Assembly (NCBI GenBank): GCA_040221175.1
Contig: JAVJVK010000019.1
Coordinates: 186,001-250,000, forward strand
Length of the DNA: 64,000 bases
Reading direction: 5' to 3'
Source: Phycisphaerales bacterium
Lineage (GTDB): Bacteria > Planctomycetota > Phycisphaerae > Phycisphaerales > UBA1924
The notes under the pieces: model-generated
The model's input: the letters and a program-made list of their open reading frames with translations, nothing else
Database searches by the model: none
What the model was told of the DNA's origin: nothing
Shown here: in pieces, positions 9,347 to 64,000 of the stretch
How positions within the stretch are numbered: position 1 is the stretch's first letter
Layout: the number at the start of each line of letters is the position of its first letter
Program-made: the position numbers and the translations under genes

Positions 9347-9349
9347 TCA

Positions 9350-12570: not shown

Positions 12571-13870
12571 TTGGCCGATTCCTCTCTGGTTGTCGTGTGT
12601 CGTTCAGCAACTGCCGAGCGACCAATGTGACCAAATCGGCGCTTACTGCGTTTCCGATGGCCCTATATGCGTTTGTGGGCTTGAGCTGTGCGAGATTGAG
12701 TTGCCCCAACCCCTGAAGCCGAGAGCACTCCCGCACGGTCATGTATCGTTGTTCCCAGGTGATGACCGGGACCTGCGTTGTCGTCATGGCAACCAGTGCC
12801 GGCGCCCAATTCGAACGCTTCACTCGAACGCCGGAAGCTCGAAACTGCAAGACATGCTCACGCAGTTCTCGCACTTCACCCTTGCAGTTCCACTCAAGCT
12901 TCTGCAAGCTGGGGGCAAAGGGTTTGAGCTTCGGAAGCCAACCTCTCAATCTGCGCCGATGCCTCTCGTAGAACTCTCGGTTCTGCGAGATGAACGTCTG
13001 CTTCCATTGAGGAAACGGACTGGATCCGCGCGCATAGCTGGGGAGCGCATTGGCACGCTCCTCATCGGTGAGGCCCTTCAAGGGCTGGCCAAATGAGCCT
13101 CGTGTACGTGCCAGGTACCTCGGGTCTCGCAGGAGCGGGGGGCGGCCGTCGTAGGGATACGTGGCGCCGAATTCGAACGTCCAGATTGGGAACGAGGGTA
13201 GGGGCTCATCTTGCGGAATGCGGTCGAGGAACTCCTGCCAGACCGCGAGGCACTCGGCGTAGTGCTCGGGGAGCGAACGCGCGTTCTTGGGCTTGCGATC
13301 GAGGATGCCTCGAATACTCGGTTCAACGTCGGACGGGTTTGGCCACTCGAAGGCGTCAAGCCCATTCAATGAGCCCACGATGAAGGCGCGATCTCGGATC
13401 TGCGCGATCTCAAATTTGTGGGGAGAAAGCACTTTTTCGGACACGGTGTACCCGAGCGACTGCAATTCGTCCTTCATCCAGCGAAACGTGCCGCCGCCGT
13501 CGTGCCTGAGAAGATTTGCGACATTCTCCAGTAGGATCCAACGGGGTCGGTGGTGATCGAGAATCCGAACTATCTCGCTAAAGAGGTCCCCGTCTCGCTC
13601 GCAATCAAGGCCCAGTTGTTCTCCCGCCTTGGAAAATGGTTGGCACGGGAATCCGGCGCACAACACGTCATGCGCCGGTATGTCGAGGACGTCGAGTTCA
13701 CGGATGTCACCTGCAGGGACGATGCCGTAGTTTTGGCCGTAGATCTCCCTGAGCTGCTCATCCTTCTCGCAAGCAAAGACGCACCGATGCCCGAGACGTT
13801 GTAGGCCGGTGTGGAAACCGCCTAGGCCGGCGAAAAGATCGATGAATCGCAGCGAATGGCGTTTTGGCAT
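12509..13870 (-). CDS. DNA (cytosine-5-)-methyltransferase
   Basis: 453 residues from the ATG at 13870; an upstream ATG would add 75 residues without homology-like motifs. All C5-methylase motifs are visible: motif I FIDLFAGLGGFHTGL, motif IV with the catalytic Cys76 in GFPCQPFS, motif VI LLENVANL, motif VIII QIRDRAFIVG, motif IX RECSRLQG and motif X YRAIGNAVSADLV. It should methylate the recognition site and protect host DNA from the island's nucleases. It is convergent to the nuclease operon and overlaps it at the 3' end. About 20 basic residues follow motif X inside the overlap and may be non-essential. Confidence 0.93.
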   Translation of the reverse strand: MPKRHSLRFIDLFAGLGGFHTGLQRLGHRCVFACEKDEQLREIYGQNYGIVPAGDIRELDVLDIPAHDVLCAGFPCQPFSKAGEQLGLDCERDGDLFSEIVRILDHHRPRWILLENVANLLRHDGGGTFRWMKDELQSLGYTVSEKVLSPHKFEIAQIRDRAFIVGSLNGLDAFEWPNPSDVEPSIRGILDRKPKNARSLPEHYAECLAVWQEFLDRIPQDEPLPSFPIWTFEFGATYPYDGRPPLLRDPRYLARTRGSFGQPLKGLTDEERANALPSYARGSSPFPQWKQTFISQNREFYERHRRRLRGWLPKLKPFAPSLQKLEWNCKGEVRELREHVLQFRASGVRVKRSNWAPALVAMTTTQVPVITWEQRYMTVRECSRLQGLGQLNLAQLKPTNAYRAIGNAVSADLVTLVARQLLNDTRQPERNRPIRSSRHTRSRPAGASLFAPR

Positions 13871-13907
13871 TGCGGGTCCTGACGGGTCCGTGTCGACGAC
13901 CGTGCGA

Positions 13908-14099
13908 ATGATAGCCAAACATCGTCTGGTTGCTGTGGAAGCCATGAGTTCGTTGGAAGACCGCTTTGCCCACGTGGGCTTAGGAATCGATCTGCGAAGC
14001 CGGCTCACGCCCGGAACGGTAATCGAGTTCGTATTCCGCGGGCCTATGTCGCTGGAGGAGGTCAACTTTCGGGTCCAAACGCCAGCGGCGTTCATGTAG
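13908..14099 (+). CDS. Possible small ORF divergent from the methyltransferase
   Basis: 63 codons from the ATG at 13908 (or 51 from the ATG at 13944), ending just before the right REP-like repeat. The translation has a protein-like composition, for example GLGIDLRSRLTPGTVIEFVF. No ribosome site is obvious. It could be a small regulator of the island, a remnant, or chance. It faces away from the methyltransferase start, with 37 bases between the two starts. Confidence 0.3.
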   Translation: MIAKHRLVAVEAMSSLEDRFAHVGLGIDLRSRLTPGTVIEFVFRGPMSLEEVNFRVQTPAAFM

Positions 14100-14122
14100 C
14101 GGCCGCGAGGCGGAACGGTCAG

Positions 14123-14160
14123 CCCCTCACCCTCAGCCCTCTCCCGCGCGCGGGAGAGGG
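14123..14160. repeat. REP-like palindromic element, right copy (inverted)
   Basis: Contains a perfect 24-bp palindrome at 14137-14160 (CCCTCTCCCGCG / CGCGGGAGAGGG) preceded by CCCCTCACCCTCAG. Its reverse complement closely matches the element at 6708-6743, so the two copies form an inverted pair around the restriction island. Confidence 0.78.
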
Positions 14161-14194
14161 AGCCAGACCCCCTCAGCCTCGGCAGACCTCGGCA

Positions 14195-14219
14195 GCTCCC
14201 CCGCTGGGAGCGGGGGAGC
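14195..14219. repeat. Perfect 10-bp stem hairpin next to the right REP-like element
   Basis: GCTCCCCCGC / GCGGGGGAGC with a five-base loop TGGGA. A short direct repeat (CCTCGGCAG, twice) lies just before it at about 14177-14195. It may be the second hairpin of a composite REP (BIME-like) unit, or a terminator. Confidence 0.6.
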
Positions 14220-14396
14220 GGGAAGAAAGGTCCGCGTGCGTACGCAGGGCCGCCCGGAGGGGTGGGGGTGTGGACCGGCCCCTCGTCGCGTGTTCGCGGA
14301 CCCGCGGCGTCCCCGGATCGCGCGCGGGCGGCGCCTCGCCGGGGGTCCGGATATGGAAACCGGCCCGAAGGGGCGTGGGGGCCGTTCTGGGCCGGG

Positions 14397-14711
14397 GACT
14401 ACGGGACGTCCTATCGAGGAGAATCGTGCTCGCACGCGCGGCGATAGATATCGCCTATGCGAGCGTCGACCTCGCATGGGCGGGGGACGACCTCGCGGCC
14501 GCCGTAGCAAGGCTCGCGGCCGGGGTGACGATGGGTGCAGCCGTGGGCGCGACGCGCGCGGACGCGGAATCGGCGGTCGCGGCGGGGAAGGTGGCCCGTG
14601 CGGCCGCACGAACCAGCCTCGCGGCCGCACGAACACCCCGCGCGGCGGCGGGCCCGCGCCTCGCGGCCGCGAGCAGGCCCCGCGCGGCGGGGAGCTCGGG
14701 TCCGGGTGCGC
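14397..14711. repeat. 21-bp tandem array A (palindromic units)
   Basis: At least 15 consecutive units of exactly 21 bp with no insertions or deletions, in phase at 14397, 14418, 14439, 14460 and so on to 14691. Units are diverged but share CTCGCGGCCG or a close variant at the same phase (14492, 14513, 14618 and 14660 regions). Several units have palindromic cores: GGACGTCC at about 14405, CGTGCTCGCACG, and GCGGCCGC. The period continues faintly on both sides (about 14270-14785). The array lies 3' of the minus-strand EF-hand gene ending at 14786. Because 21 is divisible by three, most frames stay open, which explains the long spurious ORFs here; no ribosome site or start supports coding. Confidence 0.8.
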
Positions 14712-14785
14712 CCCCGTGGGGCGGTCGCTTGCGGGCAGGAGCCGGCAAGGCGCCGGGAACCAGCTCGGCGGGCGCCGGGGCGGCC

Positions 14786-16942
14786 CTAGGGGCAGCCGGC
14801 GTCGAACGCGTTCTGGAACGCCAGGAAGTCGAAGATCGTCAGCGCGCCGTCGCCGTCCAGGTCGGCCGTGGGATCGCCCGCGTCGAACAGGTTCTGGAAC
14901 GCCAGGAAGTCGAACAGCGAGAGCTCGCAGTCGCCGTCGGCGTCGGCCGTGCAGCGGGCCCGCAGCTCCAGCGCCGCGCCCCCGGCCGCGTCGACCACCG
15001 CCAGCGACCAGCGCACGCCGCCGGCCGTCGCCGGCAGCGCCAGCGCGTCGAAGACGCCCTCGATCGAAGACCCGCGCAGCAGCGTGAACGTGTCGCATCG
15101 GCCCGGCTCGTACCCGTCGATCGCCGAGGCCTCCAGCGTGCCGCCCAGCGTCCAGGCCGCGTCGCCCGTGAGCCGGTCGTGGCCGGTGGGGTCGGCGGGG
15201 CCCGCCAGGTCCAGGCGCAGGCGCGATGGGGCGGCCAGCGTCACCTCGCCCGAGACCTCCAGCGTGCCGATCGGCCCCGGCGCCGCGCCGCCGGGAGCCA
15301 GCGCGCCCTCGACCAGGTAGCTGCCCGACACGCGGCCGCGGCCGGTGATCGACGTGCCCGGGCCGATGGTGGTGCGCAGCCCCGCCGCGGCCTGGACCAG
15401 CTGGGCCGCGCCCGTGGGGGCGCCGGCGTCGTGGAGGCGCACCTCGCCCGCCCCGCGGATCGAGCCGCTGGTGGCCAGCACGGCCCGCGCGGGCTCGGGC
15501 CCGCCATCGCGGTTGATCAGCAGCACGCCGTCGCTGGTGATGTCGCCGCGCAGCGTCAGGTCGCGGCCGGCCTGGACGCCCACCTGGCCGCCCAGCAGCG
15601 TGATTCGCTCGAGCGATGCGTTGCCGCCGGCGACCTCGATGGGCCCGCCGCGGGCATCGAGCCGCCCGCCGATGACCGAACCGATAAGCCGGACCGACCC
15701 CCCGTCGTTGATGATAAGCCCGCCCACGCTCTGGGTGACGTCGCACTGGATGCGGAGCAGGCCGCCGGCGGTGGCCTCGATGCGGCCGCGGTTGTCCTTG
15801 TCGTTCTCGGTCAGGGCCAGCTCGGCGCCGTCCTGGTCGGCGCTGATCACGCCGCGATTAATCAGCGTGGCGCTCACCACGCCCGAGCCGCGCACCGCGA
15901 CGCCGGTGTCCAGCGTCGTGGTCGGCCGGCTGGTGAACCAGTCGGCGAGCTGGGCGGCGCCGATGGCCACCGGCGTGCCCTCGTTGAGGGCGATGGTCAT
16001 CGCGCCCGAGAGGGTCTGGTCGGTGGCCAGGTACACCCTGGAGAATCCTCCGGCGGCCACGCCGGTCACGTGCAGCGTGCCGTTCATCGTCATGCCATCG
16101 AGGATGCGGACCGAGCCCTGCTCGGGCAGGACCAGGTCGCCCTGCACCAGCGTAATGTCGGTCAGGTCGCCGCCAGCCTCGACCACGCCGCCGGTCGCGA
16201 TGATGCCGCCCCCGCGGACGTCGCCGGCCAGCCGCACGCGCCCGCCGTTGGCCACGATGCGCCCGCTGCCGACCTGCTCGACGATGCTGCTGATCAGCAG
16301 GACGCCGTCGTCGGTGGCCTCCAGCACGCCGGTGTTCGTCACGATGCCTCGCACCTGCAGCTCGCGCCCGGGCGCATCGGCCCGCACCGTGCCGGTGTTG
16401 GAAAAGTCCAGGCTCACCCAGCCCGAGCCGCGGATGGTGATGCCCGGGCCGATGGTCTTGGGGTTGCGCGTGCCCGCGTCGTCCAGGTCGGCATAGGTGG
16501 TGCTCCAGTGCGAATCGTCCACCAGCACGATCTCGCCCGTGCCCACGATGGCGATCGGCCCCGAGCTCAGCAGCGTCAGCTCCGAGAGTGCCGGCAGACC
16601 CTCGTCGTTGATCACCAGCGTGCCGTCGAGCACGTGGGTGGGGCCGGTGAGGGTCAATTGCCGCGCGGCGCCGATGCCGAGCACCGCGTCGGGATTGCGC
16701 ATCTCGATGGAGCGCACCTGGGCGTCCTCGTCGCGGAGCAGAACCTGGTAGGCGCCCGGCAGCGTGAAGCGCGCGGTCGCGCCGCTGGAAGGAACGGCCA
16801 GCAGATCCCAGTTGGCCGCCTCGTGCCACGATCCGCCCGCGGGGTTGGTCCATTCGAACGCCTGGGCCGCGGCCGACCCGGGCGCCCCGATGACGGCCGC
16901 CAGCGCCGCCGCGCCGGCCGTGGGAATCCTCAAGCTCGCCAT
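14786..16942 (-). CDS. Exported beta-strand-rich adhesin-like protein with C-terminal EF-hand pair
   Basis: 718 residues from the ATG at 16942 with a clear GAGGAGG ribosome site. A signal peptide ends near AAAQ (about residue 27). The body is made of repeated short beta segments with T/G/V-rich turns (for example TLTGPTHVLDGTLVINDEGL), resembling the beta-helix passenger of autotransporter or polymorphic outer-membrane proteins. The last 55 residues hold two dockerin-like EF-hands, DADGDCELSLFDFLAFQN and DLDGDGALTIFDFLAFQN, and the protein ends in GCP. The tag probably binds calcium and may mediate surface sorting or assembly; that is inference. An array of 21-bp repeats lies just 3' of the gene. 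Confidence 0.8.
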   Translation of the reverse strand: MASLRIPTAGAAALAAVIGAPGSAAAQAFEWTNPAGGSWHEAANWDLLAVPSSGATARFTLPGAYQVLLRDEDAQVRSIEMRNPDAVLGIGAARQLTLTGPTHVLDGTLVINDEGLPALSELTLLSSGPIAIVGTGEIVLVDDSHWSTTYADLDDAGTRNPKTIGPGITIRGSGWVSLDFSNTGTVRADAPGRELQVRGIVTNTGVLEATDDGVLLISSIVEQVGSGRIVANGGRVRLAGDVRGGGIIATGGVVEAGGDLTDITLVQGDLVLPEQGSVRILDGMTMNGTLHVTGVAAGGFSRVYLATDQTLSGAMTIALNEGTPVAIGAAQLADWFTSRPTTTLDTGVAVRGSGVVSATLINRGVISADQDGAELALTENDKDNRGRIEATAGGLLRIQCDVTQSVGGLIINDGGSVRLIGSVIGGRLDARGGPIEVAGGNASLERITLLGGQVGVQAGRDLTLRGDITSDGVLLINRDGGPEPARAVLATSGSIRGAGEVRLHDAGAPTGAAQLVQAAAGLRTTIGPGTSITGRGRVSGSYLVEGALAPGGAAPGPIGTLEVSGEVTLAAPSRLRLDLAGPADPTGHDRLTGDAAWTLGGTLEASAIDGYEPGRCDTFTLLRGSSIEGVFDALALPATAGGVRWSLAVVDAAGGAALELRARCTADADGDCELSLFDFLAFQNLFDAGDPTADLDGDGALTIFDFLAFQNAFDAGCP

Positions 16943-46313: not shown

Positions 46314-46760
46314 ATGCCACGAGCCAACCGCACACGCGACCAGCGCCCAAGCTGCGCCGACGACTTCCAACATCAAGACCGCTCCGACCGCCCGCGCCAC
46401 GGCCGTCGAAACGAATCCGACGGCTTCCGATGCATCCATTGCAGGGCCCACGTCAGCGGCCGCGTCTGGGGCACGAAGCAGCGCAACCACTGCCCGGCCT
46501 GCCTGCACAGCAAGCACGTCGACGACCAGTCCGGCGACCGCGCCAGCCCTTGCGGCGGGGCGATGGAGCCCATCGCCGTCGCCGTGCGCTCCAGCGGCGA
46601 GGACGCCGGCGAGTGGGTCCTGGTGCACCGCTGCAACCGCTGCGGCGTGCTGCGCGTCAACCGCATCGCCGGCGACGACAGCGAACGCGCCCTGCTCGCG
46701 CTCGCCCTCCGACCGCTCGCGCGGCCGGCGTTCCCGATCGATGACCCAAGGGGCGGCTAG
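46314..46760 (+). CDS. RNHCP-domain zinc-ribbon protein
   Basis: 148 residues from the ATG at 46314; an ATG at 46206 is also open but its added part is low-complexity. The domain has FRCIHCRAHVSG, then the defining QRNHCPACLHSKHVD, ASPCGGAMEPI and VHRCNRCGVLRVNR. Four CxxC-type pairs should hold zinc in two ribbons. The RNHCP family is of unknown function, thought to bind nucleic acid. The N-terminal 40 residues are basic and disordered. The stop overlaps the convergent EF-hand gene by four bases. Confidence 0.82.
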   Translation: MPRANRTRDQRPSCADDFQHQDRSDRPRHGRRNESDGFRCIHCRAHVSGRVWGTKQRNHCPACLHSKHVDDQSGDRASPCGGAMEPIAVAVRSSGEDAGEWVLVHRCNRCGVLRVNRIAGDDSERALLALALRPLARPAFPIDDPRGG

Positions 46761-48139
46761 TCGCAGCCGGCGTCGAACGCCGTCTGAAACGTCAGGAAGT
46801 CGAAGATCGTCAACGCGCCGTCGCCGTCGAAGTCGGCTTGGGCGTCGCCGTCCTGGAAGAGGTTGAGGTAGGTGAGGAAGTCGAAGATGGTGAGGAGGCC
46901 GTCGGCGTCGAGGTCGGGGCGGCAGATCTCGCACGAGAGGTCGAAGAGGTGGGCCGCGCCGAGTGGCGCTCCACCCACATCATCCAGCTTGGCCCCGACC
47001 AGGGCGCGGCGCCCATCGGTTGCGATGGCCGGTCCGAAGGAGTCCGAGGGCCCCCCGGGCAGCAGCGTGGCCCGCCGCGTCCAATCATCGGCCGGCCCAC
47101 GCTGGAACACGAGCACAGCGCCCAACACGGACGGCGTGCGAGATCCCGCCAGCTGTGCCAGCAACACGCCGTCGCGGAGGGACAGGTTCCAGCCAAAATG
47201 ATCGCGGCGGATGGCATCGTCGAGCGTGATCTCCTGCAGCGGCATCCACCGGGCCCCATCGTACTCGAAGCGGTACACCACCCCCTGGGCCTCGAACTCA
47301 CGGTCGGCATTGATCGCCCCGACGAAGAGCTGATCGTTGTCCGAGGCTATCGAATAGCCGAACCGCGGACCCTGCTCGGGGTGGATCGCGTCGATCTTCT
47401 GATGGAAAACGAACTCGGTGGGCCCCTCGCGCCGGAAGACGTACACCGAGCCCACGTTCACGGCGATGCTGTCGTCGAAGGGCGTGCCCACGAACAGCCA
47501 ATCTTCCGTCAGGGCATTGGCGTTTCCACCGAAGGCTCGTCCCCCAGTCGGCGCATCGGGCGCTTCCAGTCGATCCACCTCACGCCACTCGCCCTGGCCA
47601 TCCTCCTGAAACACGTAGAGCAGTGGGGGCATGTTGACCAGGGCGACATCACGATTGATGATGACCTGGCGACCAAAGCCCGCGAACGTCACCGGCCAAG
47701 GCGAGGGGATTCGTCCGGTCTCAGACCATTGCTCGCCATCGAAGTCGTAGATGTATGCCCCGCCCGTATCGGGCCCGGCCAGATCGGCGTTTTGGGATCC
47801 CACGATCAGGCGGTCGCCATTGAGGTGGATCGAGGCGCCAAAGTTGTCGCCTTGTTGCACGTCCGCCGGGAGGAGTCGCTGCACGCGCTCCCACTGGCCG
47901 TCGATGAGGCGGAAGTCGTACACCGCCCCGGTGGCGCAATCGAACACGATCGGGCATAGGGTGGCGGCCGAGGCGTCGGCCACCAGCACGTGCCGTTCGT
48001 TCATCACCACTTCGCCCCCAAAGCCACCACCAAACGGCCCTTCCGGCGGCGTCAGCCGCTCGATGGGGCACTGGGCGAGGGTTGCAACGGCGGGGCCAAA
48101 GACGGCCACCAGGCCAGCGGCGATGCTGGTGGTGCGCAT
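46757..48139 (-). CDS. Exported FG-GAP-repeat protein with C-terminal EF-hand pair
   Basis: 460 residues from the ATG at 48139, with a signal peptide ending near ATLAQ. The body has FG-GAP/integrin-like beta-propeller repeats, recognisable by GDNFGASIHLNGDRLIVGS, GPRFGYSIASDNDQLFVGA and DSFGPAIATDGRRALVGA. The C-terminal 55 residues carry the dockerin-like pair DLDADGLLTIFDFLTYLN and DFDGDGALTIFDFLTFQT. It is a likely surface or secreted protein. The open frame continues upstream through the 21-bp array only because the period is divisible by three; that part is not coding. Confidence 0.83.
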   Translation of the reverse strand: MRTTSIAAGLVAVFGPAVATLAQCPIERLTPPEGPFGGGFGGEVVMNERHVLVADASAATLCPIVFDCATGAVYDFRLIDGQWERVQRLLPADVQQGDNFGASIHLNGDRLIVGSQNADLAGPDTGGAYIYDFDGEQWSETGRIPSPWPVTFAGFGRQVIINRDVALVNMPPLLYVFQEDGQGEWREVDRLEAPDAPTGGRAFGGNANALTEDWLFVGTPFDDSIAVNVGSVYVFRREGPTEFVFHQKIDAIHPEQGPRFGYSIASDNDQLFVGAINADREFEAQGVVYRFEYDGARWMPLQEITLDDAIRRDHFGWNLSLRDGVLLAQLAGSRTPSVLGAVLVFQRGPADDWTRRATLLPGGPSDSFGPAIATDGRRALVGAKLDDVGGAPLGAAHLFDLSCEICRPDLDADGLLTIFDFLTYLNLFQDGDAQADFDGDGALTIFDFLTFQTAFDAGCD

Positions 48140-48219: not shown

Positions 48220-48576
48220 CCGCCCCGTGGTCGTGCCGTCGCCCTCGCGGCCCTCCCGCGGCCACGCTGGCCCGCGCAGGGGCCGCCCACGCACGTAGAT
48301 CGATCGCTGGTGGACCTGCAGGAGCGATCGGTGCACGTGGATCGGCCGTCCATGGTCGTGGAGGAGCGGTTGCCTTCAAGAGATCGCTCGTTGCGGCAGG
48401 TGGAAGAACCGTCCCCGCACGTAAAAAAACCGTTGCTCCACGTGGAGGAACCGTTCCTGCAGGCAAAGGGATCGTTGCTTTACCTGCAGGAGCCGTTCCT
48501 ACAGCTGCAAGAACCGTTGCCGCACCTGTAGCAGCCGTCGCTGGTCGAACCGGAGCCAAACGCGAAGGCTTCGGGT
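48220..48576. repeat. 21-bp tandem array B (palindromic units)
   Basis: Seventeen consecutive 21-bp units in exact phase (48220, 48241, 48262 and so on to 48556). The clearest unit, at 48430-48450, is close to the palindrome GTTsCTnCACGTGnAGsAAC. Central hexamers differ between units but stay palindromic: CACGTG (48438), CTGCAG (48457 and 48485) and CAGCTG (48502). The array lies between two exported EF-hand genes, 3' of the one ending at 48738 and 5' of the one starting at 48139. Every frame on both strands stays open with heptad-like amino acid repeats, but no start or ribosome site supports translation. The remaining flanks (48140-48219, 48577-48737) show nothing else. Confidence 0.82.
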
Positions 48577-48737: not shown

Positions 48738-50033
48738 CTACGGACACCCGATGTCGAACGCGTCGAAGTACCGCAGGAAGTCAAAGATGGTCAGCACGCC
48801 GTCGCCGTCGAAGTCGGCGCCGAGATTGCCGTCCTGGAAGCGGTTCAGGAAGATCAAGAAGTCGAACACCGTGGCGTCGCCGTCGCCATCCAGATCGACC
48901 GCGCAGGGCGGGGCAGGATCGAGCACGGCGATGTAGGCCTCGGTCTGGCCGTCGGGATTGAGCCCGGCGCCGACGATCGCCACCCGGCCCGTGTCGGCGT
49001 GCACCGTCGCGTCGAGCGCGAGCGTGAGCGTCCAGCCGCTCAGGTCAAGCCCGAAGTCCGCTTCGAGCACCTCCTGCAGCGGGCGCATGCCGTCGGCCTG
49101 CGTCCAGATGAACGCCCGCAGTTCGGCGCCGTCCTGGGCCCAGCCGACGATGATCGAGCCGTCCTCGCTGACCGCTCGGGTGAAGATGCGGCTTTCGCCG
49201 AACGCGCTGCCGGTCTGGAGCACCTCGAGGCCCGCGTCGGTCCATCGGATGGCCGACTGGCCGGCATCGGTGCGCACCCAGCCCACGATCGTCGCGCCAT
49301 CGGGCGTCATGCCCTGGGCTTCGCCCGAGACCACGTCGCCCAGGGGCAGCGGCAGCGGTTCGAGGCCGCTGGACGCCGTCCAGCGGAAGGGCTGACGAAC
49401 CTCGCCGTCGGCGCTGCCGTAGCCGGCCGCGACCGATCCATCGGCGCTCACGGCGGTTGCCTGGGTCGAAGCGCCCGGCGCGAGGCGGCCGAGACCGGTC
49501 ATGCCCGTGCCGGGCGTCCATGCGAACGCCTCGTCGCCCAGCGGGCCCGAGATCGAGCGGCTGGCGCCCACGACGACGTCGCCGTCGGCGTTCGTCGCGC
49601 CCGCCTCGCTCTGGATGGACCCGCCCGCAAGATCACCCAGCGAGATCATGCCCGTCGCCTCACGCCAGCGATGCGCGAGGATGCCATCGGGCCCGGACGC
49701 GGCGCCCACGATCGTCGTCCCATCGGCGCTGATGCCCGCCGCGCTGCTGAAGAAGAACGCCCCGCCCAGGTCGCCCAGGCCCAGCATGCCTTCGGCGAGC
49801 GTCCAGCGGAAGGCCTCGCGCCCGCGCCCGCTCTCGGCGTTGCCCGACACGACGAGATTCGCCACGTCGCCGCCGGCCAGGTCGAACGAGCTGACGCCGC
49901 TGGCCGAGGAAACGAACGCCCGGCCGGGAAGATCTCCCAGCGGCGTGAACGATGATTGCGACATGGCCGCGGCCGAGGGAAGCCCCAGCGCCAGCGATGC
50001 CACGAGGACGTTTCGGATCGATACGTTCATCAT
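48738..50033 (-). CDS. Exported HAF-repeat protein with C-terminal EF-hand pair
   Basis: 431 residues from the ATG at 50033 (or the adjacent ATG at 50030), with GGGGGAG upstream and a signal peptide ending near AAAMSQ. The body holds repeats of the HAF type, each with an A-x-GIS-x-DG-x-x-IVG core: AAGISADGTTIVGAASG, AQGMTPDGATIVGWVR and TRAVSEDGSIIVGWAQ. These form a propeller-like fold in secreted proteins. The C-terminus is DLDGDGDATVFDFLIFLN and DFDGDGVLTIFDFLRYFD, ending GCP. Like the two other C-terminally tagged genes it is probably exported by the Sec route. Confidence 0.84.
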   Translation of the reverse strand: MMNVSIRNVLVASLALGLPSAAAMSQSSFTPLGDLPGRAFVSSASGVSSFDLAGGDVANLVVSGNAESGRGREAFRWTLAEGMLGLGDLGGAFFFSSAAGISADGTTIVGAASGPDGILAHRWREATGMISLGDLAGGSIQSEAGATNADGDVVVGASRSISGPLGDEAFAWTPGTGMTGLGRLAPGASTQATAVSADGSVAAGYGSADGEVRQPFRWTASSGLEPLPLPLGDVVSGEAQGMTPDGATIVGWVRTDAGQSAIRWTDAGLEVLQTGSAFGESRIFTRAVSEDGSIIVGWAQDGAELRAFIWTQADGMRPLQEVLEADFGLDLSGWTLTLALDATVHADTGRVAIVGAGLNPDGQTEAYIAVLDPAPPCAVDLDGDGDATVFDFLIFLNRFQDGNLGADFDGDGVLTIFDFLRYFDAFDIGCP

Positions 50034-55079: not shown

Positions 55080-55452
55080 CGATCGACGTGACTATCCGGC
55101 GGGACCGATGCCCGAGGTCATCTCGCGCGCCGTTGCCAGGCGTCGCCGCGTGATCCGCGTGCGACGCGGGGGCGTCGTCGCCGCGGCCCTGCTGCTGGCA
55201 GGGACTGGCGTATGGCTCGCATGGCCCCAAGCCCGCTTGGTGGACGAAACCGAGCGCATCGCGTCGGTAGACCCACCGAACGCGATCGACCCACCGCCCG
55301 CGTCGTTCGCGCGTGTCTCGGTGCTGGCGCTCCGGCTGGCCGGTCCAGACGAGGTGGAGGCAATGCCCGCCGCGGCCGTTGCAACGCGGTCCGAGACGGT
55401 GTTCGGGCTCCGCCACCGGGATTCGGGCGAGGGGCCCTCTCCGGCTTCATGA
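55069..55452 (+). CDS. Single-span membrane protein, possible anti-sigma factor
   Basis: 127 residues from the ATG at 55069, with GGAGGA nine bases upstream and an 11-base overlap with the sigma gene. A basic N-terminal region (ISRAVARRRRVIRVRRGG) precedes one membrane helix (GVVAAALLLAGTGVWLAW), and a short periplasmic tail follows. There is no zinc anti-sigma (HCxxC) motif. The assignment as sigma regulator rests on position and topology only. Confidence 0.65.
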   Translation: MPLDDRRDYPAGPMPEVISRAVARRRRVIRVRRGGVVAAALLLAGTGVWLAWPQARLVDETERIASVDPPNAIDPPPASFARVSVLALRLAGPDEVEAMPAAAVATRSETVFGLRHRDSGEGPSPAS

Positions 55453-55486
55453 AGACGCCGCGCGCCCCCGGCCGATAAGGCTTGCA

Positions 55487-58400
55487 ATGGCGCCCCAGCC
55501 CTTTCAATGCGTCCTCGCCGTCCTGGCCGCCCTGCTGGCGTCCCTCGCCCCGGCCCAGATTCCCGAGGACCAGGGCGAATCGGCGCCCGTGATCACCCGA
55601 CCGAGTTCGATCGGCCGCATCGTGCGGCACTTCGACTTCGAGGAGCGCAGCTTCAACGCGCTGGACATCCCGCTGTACTGGATCCGCGCCCAGCACGACC
55701 CCGAGGTACGCGAACGCCCGGGCTTTCCCATCACCAACCTTGGCCGACTCGATTACGCCTCGCCCACGTCCAGCGGCGTCGGCTCGGTCAGGCTGGCGAC
55801 CACGGGCGGGGGCACCAGCCTGCGGCTCGAGCGCGGCGTCGTGCCCACCTTTCCATCGGTGCGTTACGCCGTGGGGGCCATGGTCCGCGTCGAGGGCCTC
55901 ACGCACGCACGGCCCAGGCTGGCGGCGCGCCTGCTCGACGAAGCGGGCCTGCCCATCGAGGGCGCATCAGCCAGCGCGCTCGTCCACCCGTCGGCCGAGG
56001 GCTGGTCGAACGCGTTCGTGCCCGTGCTCATCAAGCTGCCCGCGGCGCCTCCGGGCGCCGTCTCGCTGCAGATCGACCTCGAACTCGTCCAGCCCGAACA
56101 ATTCGATGATCGGGGCGCCCAGTCCTACCAGCTTTGGAGCGAGGACTACCAGGGCACGGTCTGGTTCGACGACGTCGTGATCGTCCAACTGCCCACCGCC
56201 TCGCTCCAGACCGCGCGGGCCAGCAACGTCTTCCTCGCCGACGAAACGCCCGAGTTGCTGGTGCGCCTGCGGGATCTCTCGGGCGACCCGATCGACGTCG
56301 ACCTGCGCATCCGCGACGTCGATGGCGTGGTAGTGGCCCAGCGCAGCGAGCGCTTCGGCGCCGGCGCCCGCGAGTTTGGCTGGCGGCCCGACCTGCCGGC
56401 CCTGGGCTGGTACGAGGCCGAGCTCCTGCTGCGCGTCGGCCCCACGCCCATGCTGCGGCTCCGCGACCGGTTCGCGTGGCTGCCCGGGGGCGAGGGCGTG
56501 CACCTGGTCCTGCCCAGGGTCGACGGCGGCACGCCCGACCGGGTCGCCCTGGCGGCGCTGGGCGATCGCCGCCGCCTGGCGCTGCTCGTGCCCGGACACG
56601 AGGGCCAGCCCCTGCCCGACGCGGCGCAGGAAGTCTTCGAGCGTGCCGGGACGCGCTCGCTGCTGGCCACGGTGCGGGTCGATGCGGCGTCCGCTGAGCG
56701 GGCCGGCGCCCCGCCCCACGCGCCATGGACCGATCTTGCGCGTCGCTTGACGACCCTCCGATCGCGGCTTGGCGCCCAGAGCACCGCCGTCCTGGAGGTC
56801 GAGCCGGCCGGGCCCCACGACGCGGCGGCCGACCGGAGCGAGGCCGATCGCGCCCTGGCCGCGCTCGACGACGGGGCCCTGTGGGACGGCGTGCTCGTGC
56901 CGGTGGTCGATCGCCTGGCCGAGGGCGTCACGCGCTGGCACGTTGGCCCCCTGGGCGGCGACGCGCTGGCCGCCACGCCCGCCAGCGCGGCCCGGCTGGC
57001 CAGCATCGCGCGACGCCTGCACCGCCTGGCGCCCGACCCGACCATCGGCGTGCCGTGGTGGGGGGGCTTCGACCCCGCCGCCGCGCGCCTGCCCGACGCC
57101 CGCCCGCCGCGCGGCGGGGCCGAACGCATCGACTGGTCCCTCACCGTGCGCGCCCCGCGCGACGCCGATGGCCCCTGGGTCCGCGAGACGGCCCGCAAGA
57201 TCCGCACGATGCTGGACTCGGGTGCCGCCGCCGAGGGCGTCATCGTGCTGACGCCCCTGGACGAAGCGCAGTTCGGCCGCCACGCCGTGGTGGCGCGCCT
57301 GGCCGAGCAGGTGCTGGCCTTCTGGGACACCCTTGATGCGCCCCCGCCCAGCGCCCGGGCCGAGGCGCCGCCGGCCACGCTGCGCCTGGCGTTGGCCGAC
57401 GCCTTCCGCTGGCGGCCCGACAACGAGCACGAGGAAGCGCGAGCCAGCGGCGAGGCCATGAGCGACGCCGGCGGCGAGCCCGCCGAAGCCCCCGGCATCG
57501 AGGCCACCGCCCAGTTGGCGGCCTTTCGCGGCATCGGCGACCGGCTGGTCGGCCGGCGGCTGGTGCACGGCTTCACCAACGCCGACGGCGTGCGCGCGAG
57601 CGTGTACGAGCCGGTGGTCTCCCGCTCGGGCGGCGGCGGGGGCCTGCTCGTGCTCCATCCGGCCGGCCCCACGACATCCGCCGGCCCCGGCGGCCCGGGC
57701 GGGAGCGCGCCCACCCACTTCGAGCTCTACCTGGGCGACGAGCCGGTCCGCGTGTACGACGTCTTCGGCAACGCGCGCGAGGTCGCCGCGACGCCGCTGG
57801 ATGGGCAGGCGAGCGAGTCGCCGCGGCTTGCCCACCGCATCGAGCTTGGCGACTGGCCGGTCTTCGTCGAGGGGGTGGACGTCGACCTGCTGCTGTTCAT
57901 CGCCTCGCTGCGGCTCGAGCCGGCGCGCCTGCCGGCCATCGACGCCGAGCACCGCGCGGCCCTGGTGATGCGCAATCCCTGGCCGGGGGCCACCAGCGTG
58001 CGCGTGCGGGTGGTCTCGCCGGGGGGCTTCGGGGGCCAGCCGGTGACCCGGCGCTCGTGGGAGATCTCCCCGCGGCTGACCGAGCTGCTGCTCGAGGGCG
58101 CCGCCGAGCGGCGCACGCCCATCAACATCCGCTTCCGGCGCAGCGAGCCGGCCGGCCGCAAGAACCTGGGGCTCGAGCTGGACGTCCGCGGCGAGCACGC
58201 CGCGCGGCGCGTCTACGTCGACGTGCCCTTCGAGATCGGGCTGGATTACCTGAGCGTGTCGGCCTCGGCGCGGCGCACGCCCGAGGGGCTGCTGGTGCAG
58301 GCCGAGGTGCGCAACCTGGGCGATCGCCCCGTGTCGCTGGAGGCCACCGCCATCGCGCCCGGGGCCCGGCGCGAGCGGGCGACCATCGCGCGCCTGCCCG

Positions 58401-58525
58401 CGGGCGCCACCGCGCGGCGCGACATCCTCATCCGCGCCTCGGCCAGCGCGGGCGACCGCGTGCTGCTGGCCATCGAGGACATCGACGCGGGCGGGCGGCT
58501 GAACTACGAGGTCGAGGTTCCCTGA
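55487..58525 (+). CDS. Large exported protein of unknown function
   Basis: 1012 residues from the ATG at 55487; a signal peptide ends near LAPAQ. The frame is open further upstream inside the anti-sigma-like gene, which is not used. A beta-rich N-terminal part resembles a carbohydrate-binding or jelly-roll domain (residues about 80-210, ending EDYQGTVWFDDVVIVQLP). The middle has a TIM-barrel-like region with WWGGFDPA and a helix pattern, but no catalytic motif I can name. The last 100 residues look like an Ig-like CARDB domain (LLVQAEVRNLGDRPVSLEAT, then LPAGATARRDILI). Probably part of the sigma-factor operon. Not recognised. Confidence 0.75.
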   Translation: MAPQPFQCVLAVLAALLASLAPAQIPEDQGESAPVITRPSSIGRIVRHFDFEERSFNALDIPLYWIRAQHDPEVRERPGFPITNLGRLDYASPTSSGVGSVRLATTGGGTSLRLERGVVPTFPSVRYAVGAMVRVEGLTHARPRLAARLLDEAGLPIEGASASALVHPSAEGWSNAFVPVLIKLPAAPPGAVSLQIDLELVQPEQFDDRGAQSYQLWSEDYQGTVWFDDVVIVQLPTASLQTARASNVFLADETPELLVRLRDLSGDPIDVDLRIRDVDGVVVAQRSERFGAGAREFGWRPDLPALGWYEAELLLRVGPTPMLRLRDRFAWLPGGEGVHLVLPRVDGGTPDRVALAALGDRRRLALLVPGHEGQPLPDAAQEVFERAGTRSLLATVRVDAASAERAGAPPHAPWTDLARRLTTLRSRLGAQSTAVLEVEPAGPHDAAADRSEADRALAALDDGALWDGVLVPVVDRLAEGVTRWHVGPLGGDALAATPASAARLASIARRLHRLAPDPTIGVPWWGGFDPAAARLPDARPPRGGAERIDWSLTVRAPRDADGPWVRETARKIRTMLDSGAAAEGVIVLTPLDEAQFGRHAVVARLAEQVLAFWDTLDAPPPSARAEAPPATLRLALADAFRWRPDNEHEEARASGEAMSDAGGEPAEAPGIEATAQLAAFRGIGDRLVGRRLVHGFTNADGVRASVYEPVVSRSGGGGGLLVLHPAGPTTSAGPGGPGGSAPTHFELYLGDEPVRVYDVFGNAREVAATPLDGQASESPRLAHRIELGDWPVFVEGVDVDLLLFIASLRLEPARLPAIDAEHRAALVMRNPWPGATSVRVRVVSPGGFGGQPVTRRSWEISPRLTELLLEGAAERRTPINIRFRRSEPAGRKNLGLELDVRGEHAARRVYVDVPFEIGLDYLSVSASARRTPEGLLVQAEVRNLGDRPVSLEATAIAPGARRERATIARLPAGATARRDILIRASASAGDRVLLAIEDIDAGGRLNYEVEVP

Positions 58526-59348: not shown

Positions 59349-59464
59349 GCGGGCAGGTTAGGGCCCCGGCCCGGGCGCCATGGGCCGACCCGCCTCGCCG
59401 AACCGCGCTGCGCGAACCACGCGACACGCACGCGACACGAACGATGCCACGCGAGCGACGCCAA

Positions 59465-59496
59465 GCAAGCCCCGAGAGAGCAAGCCCCGAGAGATT
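59465..59496. repeat. Short tandem duplication upstream of the 59515 gene
   Basis: GCAAGCCCCGAGAGA occurs twice in direct tandem just before the ribosome site of the downstream gene. It is short and may be chance duplication; its place in the leader could affect translation. Confidence 0.55.
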
Positions 59497-59514
59497 TCCC
59501 CTGGAGGAACGCCC

Positions 59515-60792
59515 ATGATCGAGCCCGCGCGGTGGATGCCCAAGCCAAACTCCTTACGAGCCAGCCTGCGCGCTCCGCTGGTCGGCGCGCTGGCGCTGCT
59601 GGCGGTGGGTGCGCCCGCGCTCGCCCAATCCACCAGTCAGCCCGCCAGCCAACCCACCAACGAGCCCACCAGCGAGCCCGTGCGCCTGTTCGAGGCCGGC
59701 GGCCGCGCGGTGCTGGTGCACGGGGTCCCCGGCGATGGGCGGATCGACTTCGGCGGCGCGCCCCTGGCGGTCGAGGGCCAGCCGGTGCGGCGCGTGGTGG
59801 GCGCGGCGGCCATGGGCGGGCACCTGCTGGTGGCCGTGCGCGACGGCGCGGTGCTGGTGTTCGAGCTGCCCGGCGCGTTCGAGGCGGGCGAAGCGGGTGG
59901 GGCGGGTGAGACGGGTGAAACGGTTGGCGCGGCCGGCGCCGGGGGCGGCGATGCCGGGCGAACGCCCCGTCTGGTGCAGGTGCTCGACGGCCTGGGCCGC
60001 GACCTCCGGGCGGCGGGGGTCGATCGCGAGCGCGGGCGGCTGCTGGTGCTGGCCGGCGGCACGACCGAGATGTTCGGCGTGACGCTGCACGAGCCCTCGT
60101 TCTGGCAGGAGGGGGATTCGACCCAGCGGGCCTACGTCGACCACGCCCGCTTCCTGGACATGCTGCGCGAGCCGGCCCCCACACCGGACGAGCCCGCCGG
60201 CGGCCAGCGTGGCGAAGACGGCCGGCCGGTCGCTGCCGAGCCCGGCGCCTCGGCCGATCCGCGGACGATGGCCATCGGCCCGCGTTCGCTGCTGCTGGCG
60301 ACCGATCGCGGTCTGCTCGAGCTGCTGCACCCCAACCGCAGCTACGCCGTGCTGGCCCGCGCGCCGCTGCCGGCGGGCGTGGCCCGGGTCGAGTCGCTGG
60401 CCTTCGCCGCGGGCGTGGGCGAGGGTCGCTGGCTGCTGGCCGGGCTGAACGAGCGTGCCGAGTGCGTGCTGCTGGCCGCCGCCCGCCCCGGCGGGCCGTG
60501 GACGGACCTTGGCGTGGCCACGCTGGACGCGGCGCTGGCGGGCGTCGGCGACGATGGCGAGGCGACGCCCATCGCCTGGCTTCCCGGATCATTCACGGTG
60601 GCCGACGACCGGGTGACCCTGTGCATCCGCGGCGAGCGCGGCGCGGCGGCGAGCTGGCCCGCCTGGCGCGAGACGCTGGCGGCCGACGATCTGACCATCC
60701 GCTGGCTGGACGGCGAAGGGGATGCGGGCGGTGATGGCGGCGGTGGGGGTGCTGGTGGGAGTGGCGGCGACGCCCCCGACGCGGGCCGATAA
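59515..60792 (+). CDS. Exported hypothetical protein
   Basis: 425 residues from the ATG at 59515 with CTGGAGGA eight bases upstream. A signal peptide ends near APALAQ, followed by a Ser/Thr/Gln/Pro linker (STSQPASQPTNEPTSEP). The body is propeller-like beta strands (VRDGAVLVFELPG, AIGPRSLLLATDRGLLELL), and the C-terminus is Gly/Asp-rich. No family recognised. A 21-bp palindromic array begins 17 bases after its stop. Confidence 0.7.
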   Translation: MIEPARWMPKPNSLRASLRAPLVGALALLAVGAPALAQSTSQPASQPTNEPTSEPVRLFEAGGRAVLVHGVPGDGRIDFGGAPLAVEGQPVRRVVGAAAMGGHLLVAVRDGAVLVFELPGAFEAGEAGGAGETGETVGAAGAGGGDAGRTPRLVQVLDGLGRDLRAAGVDRERGRLLVLAGGTTEMFGVTLHEPSFWQEGDSTQRAYVDHARFLDMLREPAPTPDEPAGGQRGEDGRPVAAEPGASADPRTMAIGPRSLLLATDRGLLELLHPNRSYAVLARAPLPAGVARVESLAFAAGVGEGRWLLAGLNERAECVLLAAARPGGPWTDLGVATLDAALAGVGDDGEATPIAWLPGSFTVADDRVTLCIRGERGAAASWPAWRETLAADDLTIRWLDGEGDAGGDGGGGGAGGSGGDAPDAGR

Positions 60793-60809
60793 GGCCCCGC
60801 CCCGGAGAA

Positions 60810-61103
60810 TCCTGCGGACGCGACGAAGGCTTCCGTGCCAGCCCGAGACGCTTCGGAGCCGGCACGGGCGGTGTTTGTGCCAGCACAAGATTCTTCCGTG
60901 CCAGTGCAGACGGTGTTCGTGCCAGCACGGAATCTTTCCGTGCATGGGCAGAACTCTTCTGTGCTTGTGCAGATTGATTCCGTGCTGGCACAAACTCTTT
61001 GGGCACTCGTGCAAAACACTTCTGCGCGAGCGCAGAACTGTTCTGCACGCCCACAAGATCATTCTGCGAGCCCGCAGAATCTTTCGCGGCCCCGTCAGGG
61101 CGG
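60810..61103. repeat. 21-bp tandem array C (palindromic hairpin units)
   Basis: Fourteen units of exactly 21 bp (60810, 60831 and so on to 61083) without indels. Most follow TTCYGYGC-NN-GYRCARAA plus three bases, so each is an inverted repeat. Arms change together: GTGC/GCAC at 60873, 60915 and 60978, GCAC/GTGC at 60999, TTCTGCGC/GCGCAGAA (perfect, 61020) and TTCTGCG/CGCAGAA (61062). A few units (60831, 60852, 61041) are weak. In the forward frame of the upstream gene the array would encode heptapeptides (SVPAQNS-like), but that gene ends at TAA before the array. 18 bases separate the stop and the first unit. Confidence 0.85.
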
Positions 61104-61535
61104 TTGTTGTATCGGACGGAGGTCGGCTGGCGGGTTCTCGGCCGTCGCGCCTCGCACAGCAAGACAAGGCGCTTTCGAAGTGGGCGCCTTCATGGCGTTG
61201 ATGGAGCAGAGCTTTCATTCGCTACGCATGACTACGCAGTGGCATACCCGCAGCCTCTCGTGGCGGATGTCGAAAGCCCGAGATTTTTCGCAGTAATTTT
61301 GAGTGCTTCAGCAGCTACCGCGCCCACGAGCCAGTGATGACGATTTCTCTCGTAAAGAGTTGGAGAGTGCTTGACTTGCGACAGTCAGCCGTGCGCCTCC
61401 ACGCTGCGTTGTCCTGAGTGCGTCGACGGCGAGGTCTCAGATTTTTCCCTTGAAGGGCAGGGAGCTTTGGGGTAGGTTGACTCGAGTCGTGTTCTACACA
61501 AAAGGGCGCGACGCACTCGATCCGGGGGTTTTGAC
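61104..61535. other. Intergenic leader between array C and the RHS gene
   Basis: About 430 bases, less GC-rich than the surroundings from about 61190. It has no convincing gene. It probably holds the promoter of the RHS gene; no clear sigma-70 boxes can be named. A CTCGAGTC-like palindromic stretch lies near 61480. Confidence 0.4.
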
Positions 61536-64000
61536 ATGTTTGCTCGTCTGATTTGCGTCACCGTGGCCGCGGTTCTCGCGTGCTCGTCCAGCGTTTTCGC
61601 CCAGCCGGTGTGCCCGGCGGATTGCGACATGGACGGCGAGCTGACGCTGTTCGACTTCCTGTGCTTCCAGAACCAGTTCGCTTCGGGCGATCCGGCGGCC
61701 GACTGCGACGGCGACGGCTCGCTGACGCTGTTCGACTTCCTGTGCTTCCAGAATAACTTCGCCGCCGGCTGCGACGAGCCGGCCTTTCCCGGCGACCCCA
61801 ACCCCAACGCGCCCGGCGAGAAGCCCTTCGCCGTGCCCGGCCCGCGCGGCGGCTGCGCGCCGGTTGAGATGCTCGAGCCGAAGGTGGACCAGTGGGTGCA
61901 CGGCGTGTATCCGTTCTCGGGCGAGACGTGGCAGACGGTCGTCGACTTCCGCGTGAAGGGCCGCGTGCTCGACTTCGTGTGGGCCCGCCGGTACCGCTCG
62001 CAGAGCGACGTGGATTCCGCGATGGGCGTGCGCTGGGACTTCTCGTACAACATCTTCCTCGAGGCCGACGGCATTGACCTGGTGCTGCACGACGGCTTTG
62101 GCCGCATCAACACCTACGAGGCCCAGGGCGATGGCACGTGGGCCCGGCCCGAGTTCTTCCGCGCGATCAGAACATCGCCGGATGGCAGCTACGTCATCGC
62201 GTTCGCCAATCGCGGCGAGTGGCGCTTCCTCCCGCTGGACGGCTCGGCCGCCGAGGGCAGGATCAGCGCGATCGTCGATCGCAACGGCAACACGATGTCG
62301 TTCGAGTACGACGCGGCCGGACGGCTCGAGACCATCCGCGATGACCTGAACAGGGTTTATACGCTGAGCTACGGCGCAGACGGACGGCTGGACAGCATCT
62401 GCGATTTCACGGGGCGCTGCTGGACGTACGACCATTACGGAGCCGGCGAGATGGGCGGCAGCCCGGGCGACCTCAAGAGCGTGACCACCGCAGCCGTCGT
62501 GGGCACGCCCACGGGCAACGACTTTCCCGACGGCAAGACCACGACGTACACGTATACGCAGGACACCGGCGACGAGCGGCTGGACCACCTGCTGCTGACG
62601 GTCACCGACGCCTCGGGCGTGACGCGCGTGGCCAACGAGTACGCGGCGACCACGAGCCCCGGCGACCTGCTCTACGGCCGGCTCGTGCGCCAGACCTGGG
62701 GCGACCCGGGCGACGTCATCGACCTGGTGTACGTCGACGTCGAGCCTGCGCCAGAGAACAACTTCGCCGAGATCCACGCGATCCTCAACGACCGCGAGGG
62801 CCACGTCAAGGACCTCTTTTACGACGGCGACAATCGCGGCGTGCTGTTCCGCGAGTACACGGGCCTGGCCGACCCCGACCTACCAACGACGCTCACCGAA
62901 AACCGGCCTGGCCCCCCCGTGCGTGGCCCGGAGACCGAGTTTGTCACGCGCTGGAGCTACAACGACGAGTCGATGCCCACGCTGGTGGTGCACCCGAACC
63001 TGAACGAGACCGAGCTGACCTACGACGACGTGGCCGTCTCGCCGCTGGCCCGCGGCAACCTGCTGGAGCGCCGTCTTCTGCCCGGTCCGCTGGGCGGTGA
63101 TCAACTCGAGCGCGTCGAGAGCTTCACCTACCTCGCCGGCGGGGGCGGCTGCTGCGGCAGCAAATTCGTCACCAGCCACACCGACTTCCGGGGCAACACG
63201 ACGACGCACGAGTACGACGCGTTCGCCAACCGAACGCGCACCATCGGCCGCGAGCCGGGCGTCGAGTACGACTTCGAGTACGATGCGTTCGGCCGCATGA
63301 TCGCCACGGTGCACCCGAGCCAGAACGGCGTCGATCGCCGCCGGGATGAATACGCCTACTACGCCGACGGGCCGGCCCGCGGGTATCGCGAGCGGACCAT
63401 CGTCGATGCGGGCGGGCTCGACCTGACGACCACGCACCTGTGGACGCCGCGTGGCTATGACGCCGGCGAGGTCGATGCCGAGGGGCGCCGTACCGACCAC
63501 GTCCGCAACCAGCTCGACCAGGTCGTCCGCACGCTCTTGCCCCAGGTCACCCTGGCCGGCACGACGGTGCGCTACACCCGTGATCGGATCTATGACGGGG
63601 ACGACAACGTCGTGCGACGCGATGTCTCGAACATCGACGAGAACGGCATGATCGAGGCCAATCTGGTGATCTCGACCACGTACACCTACGGCACGCTCGA
63701 CGAGCTGCTGACGGTAGCCCAGGAGATCGACGAGTCGACCTCGGCAACGACGCGATACAGCTACGACGCCAACCGAAACCGCGTGCTCATCGAGCATCCC
63801 GCGGCAGTCGCGGGCTCGCGAACGGGCAACAGCGAGCGATTCGATTACACGCCTCGGGACCTCGTCTGGCGGCACGTCCGCGGGCCCGGCACTCTGGAGA
63901 AGTCTTCGACATCATTCAGCTTCGACGGCAACCGCCAACTGACCTTCCGGGGCGAAGGCCTGGAAGGCGACTCGTCCGAGTACAACTACCGATACACGGG
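61536..64000 (+). CDS. RHS/YD-repeat protein with N-terminal EF-hand pair, 3' truncated
   Basis: At least 821 residues, running off the window. A signal peptide (MFARLICVTVAAVLACSSS) is followed by two Cys-containing EF-hands, DMDGELTLFDFLCFQN and DCDGDGSLTLFDFLCFQN, then a Pro-rich linker. The main part has many YD/RHS repeats, for example RNGNTMSFEYDAAGRLETI, GNTTTHEYDAFANRTRT and TRYSYDANRNRVLIEH. RHS proteins form large shells around C-terminal domains, often toxins, and are usually exported or surface-bound. The C-terminal domain is not visible here. Placing the EF-hand tag at the N-terminus, and with cysteines, differs from the three C-terminally tagged proteins. Confidence 0.9.
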   Translation, partial: MFARLICVTVAAVLACSSSVFAQPVCPADCDMDGELTLFDFLCFQNQFASGDPAADCDGDGSLTLFDFLCFQNNFAAGCDEPAFPGDPNPNAPGEKPFAVPGPRGGCAPVEMLEPKVDQWVHGVYPFSGETWQTVVDFRVKGRVLDFVWARRYRSQSDVDSAMGVRWDFSYNIFLEADGIDLVLHDGFGRINTYEAQGDGTWARPEFFRAIRTSPDGSYVIAFANRGEWRFLPLDGSAAEGRISAIVDRNGNTMSFEYDAAGRLETIRDDLNRVYTLSYGADGRLDSICDFTGRCWTYDHYGAGEMGGSPGDLKSVTTAAVVGTPTGNDFPDGKTTTYTYTQDTGDERLDHLLLTVTDASGVTRVANEYAATTSPGDLLYGRLVRQTWGDPGDVIDLVYVDVEPAPENNFAEIHAILNDREGHVKDLFYDGDNRGVLFREYTGLADPDLPTTLTENRPGPPVRGPETEFVTRWSYNDESMPTLVVHPNLNETELTYDDVAVSPLARGNLLERRLLPGPLGGDQLERVESFTYLAGGGGCCGSKFVTSHTDFRGNTTTHEYDAFANRTRTIGREPGVEYDFEYDAFGRMIATVHPSQNGVDRRRDEYAYYADGPARGYRERTIVDAGGLDLTTTHLWTPRGYDAGEVDAEGRRTDHVRNQLDQVVRTLLPQVTLAGTTVRYTRDRIYDGDDNVVRRDVSNIDENGMIEANLVISTTYTYGTLDELLTVAQEIDESTSATTRYSYDANRNRVLIEHPAAVAGSRTGNSERFDYTPRDLVWRHVRGPGTLEKSSTSFSFDGNRQLTFRGEGLEGDSSEYNYRYT

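Follow-up and report, generated by a model that had tools for sequence, protein, structure and literature searches.

The question raised by this locus is what holds the length of a tandem repeat constant while its letters drift. Within the 64,000-nucleotide stretch of Phycisphaerales DNA analysed here, which we call the window, a preliminary description had placed a tandem array of 21-bp units (array C) at 60810-61103, just behind a gene for an exported protein. Our analysis bears this out: the sequence of the unit drifts, and its length stays the same. Over positions 60830-61100 the identity at lag 21 was 0.572, compared with 0.256 in 5000 single-base shuffles (sd 0.027, maximum 0.368), and the best lags were 42, 63 and 21, the next among lags 1-69 reaching only 0.317. 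The palindromic arms that had been described were also present, GTGC/GCAC in units 60873, 60915 and 60978, GCAC/GTGC in unit 60999 and GCGC/GCGC in unit 61020. The best dyad of array C scored 0.57 compared with 0.42 in column-permuted units (p=0.0025), and base-centred and gap-centred dyads take turns along the array every 10.5 bp.

Table 1. Positions in the window of the three arrays and of the features that flank array C.
Feature	Position	Strand	Remarks
Array A	14431..14709		~13 units of 21 bp; dyad not significant, p=0.11
Array B	48386..48550		~8 units of 21 bp; dyad p=0.0025
Upstream exported-protein gene	59380..60792	+	start may be 59515; signal-like N-terminal stretch, by eye
Array C	60809..61102		~13-14 units of 21 bp, dyad-symmetric
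Leader motif, TCCGATANNNAAACCGCCCTGGCGCCCC-like, with first half-unit	61076..61119	-	adjoins array C, reading into the array
CCGAGAACNCC-like motif, one mismatch	61131..61141	-	outside the leader of array C
Downstream gene	61536..63998	+	GC-type dockerin and RHS/YD repeats; extends past the window edge

Searches that relied on the letters of array C returned few relatives. A rigid search pattern for the unit found no matches, and the sole meaningful BLAST match of array C in its own genome was array C. Hits from the sequence search were otherwise largely at chance level, with three weak ones in the genus (loci L002, L003 and L004), each of which proved to be a 21-bp array that has a leader in common with array C. 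The flanks of these three loci resemble the minus-strand flank of array C, that of L004 being, by eye, more diverged. The preliminary description had captured the array itself and had left unmentioned both this conserved flank and the occurrence of such arrays across the genus and the family. L003, from another species of the genus, shows a further level of order at 1434-1640: two different palindromes alternate there with an identity of 0.95 at lag 42, forming a 42-bp higher-order repeat on a 21-bp ruler.

The leader was described by a 44-position sequence model, built from 26 sequences of which the window's is one and aligned without L089 and L092; the leader of array C scores 34.1 bits against it (E=2.5e-8 in 1.26 Mb). 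A leader pattern search of the genus gave 33 matches in six of seven genomes, including that of the window, compared with a single match for the reversed-pattern control. Thirty of these were taken as loci, and the window is one of the remaining three. We discarded L103's own match, L107 and L110 (lag-21 identity 0.30-0.35) and set aside two matches in genome G000 (C4:434605 and C4:686860); the set of leader loci used below comprises 28 with array-like sequence, the window included. With E<=1.4e-7 as the limit, the model itself found 28 copies, scattered over six of the seven genus genomes; the two sets overlap without being identical, and their equal count is coincidental.

At the strength seen within the genus, the leader was found in none of the 54 genomes outside it (61 searched with strict filters and at most 104 scored candidates in each; best E=9.3e-4), 20 of which gave weak matches with E from 9e-4 to 0.1. 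Two of the 21 loci taken from the model search (L199-L219) exceeded 0.5 at lag 21, and both were rejected as members of the class, L209 being a 7-bp repeat and L218 coding. A loose pattern allowing up to three mismatches was likewise discarded: it matched 117 of 120 genomes of the family, its reversed control often matched outside the genus, and none of the 30 loci that it returned exceeded 0.50 at lag 21 (L056 and L074 equalled it). The exact pattern, searched in 84,980 species genomes, occurred in 12 stretches. Seven came from Phycisphaeraceae or Phycisphaerae records, and six of these then showed a lag-21 identity of at least 0.51; the five from unrelated bacteria were not array-like (0.31-0.39). 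Leader loci beside pheS-, feoAB- and polyphosphate-kinase-like genes, which were identified by eye in the translations, are each found in two species, whose unit consensuses have identities of 0.57, 0.81 and 0.33, respectively. Read in reverse, the leader is similar to one half of an apparently complete intrinsic-terminator hairpin at L199 near 1480-1520, in another genus, and judging from this resemblance the leader may be derived from a terminator. An ECF-promoter reading of the DNA upstream of the leader was considered by eye and not adopted.

We also surveyed 2.06 Mb from 13 genomes for periodicity at lags 14-45, counting the window with G000 and skipping segments with masked bases. The survey yielded 90 periodic loci, 37 of them with a period of 21 bp. 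Among arrays that a codon model classed as non-coding-like, 24 had a period of 21 bp, array C included, and 17 had other periods (two at 14 bp, three at 18, six at 27, one at 30, one at 39, three at 42 and one at 45); 21 bp was thus the commonest period and 27 bp the next. Non-coding-like arrays with a period of 19, 20, 22 or 23 bp were absent from this sample. When unit columns were permuted, a dyad was significant at p<=0.01 in 12 of the 24 arrays of 21 bp as against 0 of the 17 of other periods. Parts of the survey were not blind, namely the window (three arrays) and the G006 stretches on leader-bearing contigs (five arrays), and with these excluded the counts become 8/16 and 0/15. The remaining 12 of the 24 had no significant dyad, for example L259 3721 (p=0.99) and L223 (p=0.80). 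The dyad test alone is no proof, because it is passed at p<=0.01 by 13 of the 49 periodic loci classed as coding-like as well, and by L209, the 7-bp repeat of another family. In none of the six 27-bp arrays, three each in G000 and G005, did a dyad reach p<=0.01.

Non-coding-like 21-bp arrays were found in the samples of G000, G004, G005, G006, G097 and G105 and in none of those of G002, G021, G018, G106, G077 and G039; the sample of G045 contained a 21-bp array without a dyad. Besides the genus of the window, two further genera of its family (G097 and G105) contain dyadic 21-bp arrays, and most 21-bp arrays of the sampled stretches have no leader match. Their letters have little in common. The consensus units of 23 leader arrays have a mean pairwise identity of 0.49 (sd 0.19), and the sequences of the non-leader arrays appear mutually unrelated. 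A functional-looking repeat class can thus escape a search by sequence similarity, given that BLAST with array C in its own genome gave a meaningful match to itself only and the periodicity scan gave 24 arrays.

What the arrays keep is their register. Neighbouring units were in register at 230 of 237 steps despite 1699 letter differences; from one unit to the next about 7 of the 21 letters change (~34%), and register shifts account for the other 7 of the 237 steps. In this the arrays resemble iteron-like, phased protein-binding arrays: 21 bp is an integral number of helical turns (two turns of B-DNA), and this length is retained under letter drift. Five arrays with a weak phase or a weak array (L082, L087, L089, L092 and L106) were omitted from these register counts and from the pooled dyad and covariation counts.

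The position of the symmetry is also shared. For 19 of the 25 leader arrays that could be scored (L086, L087 and L090 fell below the scoring cut-off), the two highest-scoring dyad centres lay 8.0 and 18.5 bp away from the leader. These two centres are not independent, since in a perfectly periodic array either implies the other. L094 and L109 fitted in part, L089 was shifted by one base, and L082, L092 and L106 did not fit. When 23 array consensuses were compared with one another, complementarity across the dyad was 0.678 compared with 0.508±0.024 in shuffles that dealt letters among arrays; 0 of 2000 shuffles reached the observed value, and the next-best centre scored 0.40. Covariation within arrays, pooled, showed a small excess over shuffles (0.584 compared with 0.558, 0 of 200 shuffles; 0.597 compared with 0.582, 2 of 200). 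Inside array C it was not significant, as 119 and 105 of 500 column-preserving shuffles reached the observed values. Covariation of the arms, as originally described for array C, is thus significant for arrays pooled or compared and does not go beyond chance in array C by itself, so that the inference of a selected shape is valid for the class and not derivable from array C alone.

At the base-centred dyad most dyadic arrays follow a purine/pyrimidine rule, purines occupying positions -5 to -2 and pyrimidines positions +2 to +5. All 11 dyad-significant non-leader arrays had a corresponding R-index above 0.5 (permuted mean 0.50), or all 10 without L259 8474, which the script tallied as non-leader and which is a leader array by position. 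With the dyad threshold relaxed to p<=0.15 the R-index was above 0.5 in 16/17 arrays (15/16 without L259 8474), with no dyad filter in 18/24 (17/23 without it) and among coding-like controls in 3/7; the CAG-rich L140 was excluded from the tally. These arrays are not independent counts, since leader arrays share ancestry and, by eye, L126 and L243 resemble each other. No conserved recognition sequence was found across the arrays, and only the purine/pyrimidine dyad tendency is common to them.

Our tentative reading, which we put forward as quite possible, is that array C is a putative helically phased DNA-binding platform for a dimeric or oligomeric protein and is one member of a lineage-wide class of non-coding arrays located between genes. 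Among the roles proposed in the preliminary description, the one that agrees best with the sequences is a dimeric protein bound in phase. Such a protein would sit once per 21 bp on a single face of the helix, and would read the spacing and the purine/pyrimidine dyad by indirect readout more than the exact letters. Where a conserved leader is present, it may nucleate binding together with the first unit. Tandem turnover would homogenise each array, and the binding geometry would retain its length and symmetry. The proposal that selection, or some ruler, acts on inverted-repeat shape and on a period of two helical turns, and not on sequence or protein, is supported by the constant period in arrays that differ in sequence, by the covariation between arrays and by the lack of a coding signature. 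A structural role, in the nucleoid, in supercoiling or in chromosome organisation, seems likelier than control of adjacent genes, since neither promoter gaps nor terminator gaps are clearly favoured. The weakest points of the platform reading are that it has no candidate protein and that half of the 21-bp arrays lack a clear dyad. The wide divergence among the arrays of a single genome also speaks against it, as hardly any sequence-specific protein could read them all. A broader proposal, conceivable and put forward with some reserve, is that the arrays form an element class defined by geometry, with many intergenic members in each genome, a two-turn ruler, alternating dyads and a purine-N3-pyrimidine rule under free turnover of the letters, and would serve as docking tracks for a family-specific architectural protein. 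If geometry is the constraint, the arrays would be natural experiments on DNA features that are read through spacing and shape, and would point to a factor that organises the chromosome in planctomycetes, a group with unusually condensed nucleoids.

The main rival of the platform reading is a serious one, and on balance we consider it somewhat unlikely: the arrays would be an unselected or selfish satellite, in which slippage and quasi-palindrome template switching seed and homogenise palindromic repeats in long gaps. Symmetry and covariation would then stem from the copying mechanism and not from function. The genomic context is consistent with such an origin. In four genus genomes, 20 of 23 non-coding-like arrays each lie in a gap that separates two called genes, and the other three (array C, L140 and L248 14574) are not assigned to a gap. 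These gaps are longer than others (median 576 compared with 333 bp), and their gene orientation is without clear bias, with 4 divergent, 13 tandem and 3 convergent compared with 57, 97 and 17 for all gaps of at least 200 bp. The coding labels and gap classes are approximate, since gene calls came from a codon-score script trained on 12 window ORFs; the tandem class of array A in particular is unsafe and may be convergent, because the gene caller called nothing in 6290-14785. Array interiors are more homogeneous than both ends, as unequal exchange predicts: identity to the array consensus by sixths from the leader is 0.62, 0.81, 0.84, 0.80, 0.73 and 0.63, the first sixth containing a first unit that is partly leader.

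Comparison of loci between genomes also suits a satellite. The exported-protein gene upstream of array C (no NCBIfam match, and in Pfam just a sub-threshold 'PT') has homologues in all six other genus genomes, and in none of the six was an array like array C or a leader found within about 1.5 kb of the homologue. Array C is therefore not essential after the homologous gene. The top lag-21 score beyond these homologues was 0.50 (L185, ~1.2 kb further), and the next genes downstream differ at the loci read (L184, L185, L187 and L189). Unit consensuses turn over between apparently orthologous loci as well, with identities of 0.33 for L086/L104 and 0.57 for L105/L108, and the absence of a dyad from half of the 21-bp arrays points the same way. 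Slippage, however, leaves three observations unexplained: one exact length across different sequences in three genera, register shifts that are rare despite the many differences between neighbouring units, and the common purine/pyrimidine orientation.

The position of array C behind an exported-protein gene, to which the preliminary description had drawn attention, holds at this locus and is only a weak tendency across the class. The 3' end of a dockerin gene borders 5 of 20 array gaps compared with 10 of 151 others (Fisher p=0.018, uncorrected); counting a dockerin gene on any side gives p=0.21, and 14 of the 20 gaps have one on neither side. The dockerin motif is present in 61 of 872 called genes in the samples of four genus genomes, and the genes that carry it are a large family of anchored exported proteins. 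GC-type dockerin genes (NF041540) are frequent neighbours of the arrays in the genus, and neighbours only.

It is unlikely that the arrays act as RNA, as chains of tandem hairpins transcribed in a 3' UTR or leader that stabilise or terminate the transcript. Some arrays do start directly behind a stop codon, and both strands of array C fold well beyond dinucleotide shuffles (z -8.65 and -8.11), which is expected anyway from the DNA palindromes. A selected RNA strand should tolerate its G.U-type mismatches, and the roughly balanced G.T and A.C counts, 342 and 372 pooled over both dyads (p=0.28) and 183 and 180 at the base-centred dyad (binomial p 0.92), therefore speak against a stranded hairpin. 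At the gap-centred dyad A.C slightly exceeded G.T (192 compared with 159, p=0.09), which would place G.U on the strand opposite the leader and leaves room for what may be a weak effect there. Mismatch frequencies were near those of shuffled columns (0.097 and 0.104, 0.095 and 0.100, 0.090 and 0.089, 0.109 and 0.103, observed and shuffled respectively), the leader has no conserved RNA fold, and Rfam searches of 11 loci gave two sub-threshold hits and no family. The arrays also show no clear bias towards convergent gaps or 3' ends. Mismatch balance, Rfam and gap orientation thus all leave the suggested hairpin chain in a 3' UTR unsupported.

The idea that leader and array together form a repeat of the MITE or REP kind that a transposase has spread is improbable. 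In its favour are the scatter of the leader copies over six of the seven genus genomes and a second motif, CCGAGAACNCC, which lies upstream of the leader at 10 of the 28 leader loci, pointing inward every time and reversed at none, and past the far end of the array at 6 of 28 pointing inward and at 1 of 28 outward. Paired inward copies at both ends, however, occur at just one of the 28 loci, so that the terminal inverted repeats of a MITE are lacking in a test that covered the CCGAGAACNCC motif only. At 26 other arrays, among which array C and one further leader array were counted, the motif is unoriented (4 inward and 3 outward on the left, 2 and 4 on the right). With up to one mismatch it occurs 290 times in 1.06 Mb of samples from four genus genomes, compared with 128 for its reversed control, and it is possibly a promoter element. 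Transposases of the Y1/RAYT type (PF01797) gave no match in G000, in a search for which 5 of 14 control genomes were positive; the leader match is missing from most sampled 21-bp arrays, and viral contigs contained no match to the exact leader pattern.

Translation of the array as a heptapeptide-repeat protein (21 bp being seven codons), which the preliminary description had named as the outcome that would overturn its own reading, is already largely refuted and can practically be set aside: array C has several open frames, some arrays read as heptad-like peptides and at least one of six frames is open in 28 of 28 leader arrays, yet the best single frame is open in at most 18 of 28, mismatches fall evenly over the three codon phases (0.330/0.336/0.322), and the best open frame of array C has a codon score of -27.

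Several known systems resemble the arrays in part. In the passages of PMC3733652 and PMC2817692 that deal with them, REP/BIME elements are intergenic palindromic units, single or in regularly spaced clusters and many per genome; they are described as protein-binding sites with a hypothesised role in supercoiling, and REPs as palindromes of 20-40 bp in families tagged GTAG or CGTC, the GTAG family often near RAYT transposases. As far as these accounts go, the 21-bp arrays are likewise intergenic and palindromic, and they differ in that their unit consensus varies among the arrays of one genome with the period constant at 21 bp, and in that G000 has no Y1 transposase. No family consensus common to the copies of one genome was found. 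REPs can occur without RAYT. Iterons and phased operators of the MetJ or ParR type have tandem sites about two helical turns apart, which place their proteins on one face of the helix. Iterons have a conserved sequence, one Rep protein and a single origin, whereas the 21-bp arrays occur at many places in the chromosome and differ in sequence. Prokaryotic satellites, as outlined in part of PMC6749651, are intergenic tandem repeats, some families of which are dispersed in a genome, and that part mentions neither a constant length of 21 bp nor a dyad rule or a leader. By architecture the nearest elements are BIMEs and iterons, and by the features tested here the 21-bp arrays are neither. Our literature search found no account of such 21-bp arrays in planctomycetes, the REP/BIME and satellite papers being the nearest.

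The other two arrays of the window also lie near dockerin-like sequences. Array A adjoins the 3' terminus of a gene that carries the dockerin motif (stop at 14786), and array B is located on the 3' side of an ORF in which a dockerin-like motif was recognised by regular expression only (stop at 48738). The same kind of expression finds GC-type dockerin-like motifs in window ORFs at 14786-14951, 46757-46804, 48738-48785 and 61632-61781, the NF041540 match being confirmed for the ORF at 61536-63998 only. A long ORF at 55313-58525 (1070 aa) has no Pfam or NCBIfam match at E<=0.001. In the region 6290-14785, ORFs of 326-747 aa are present, none of them gene-like under the codon model of the remaining window, and this region is possibly DNA of other origin.
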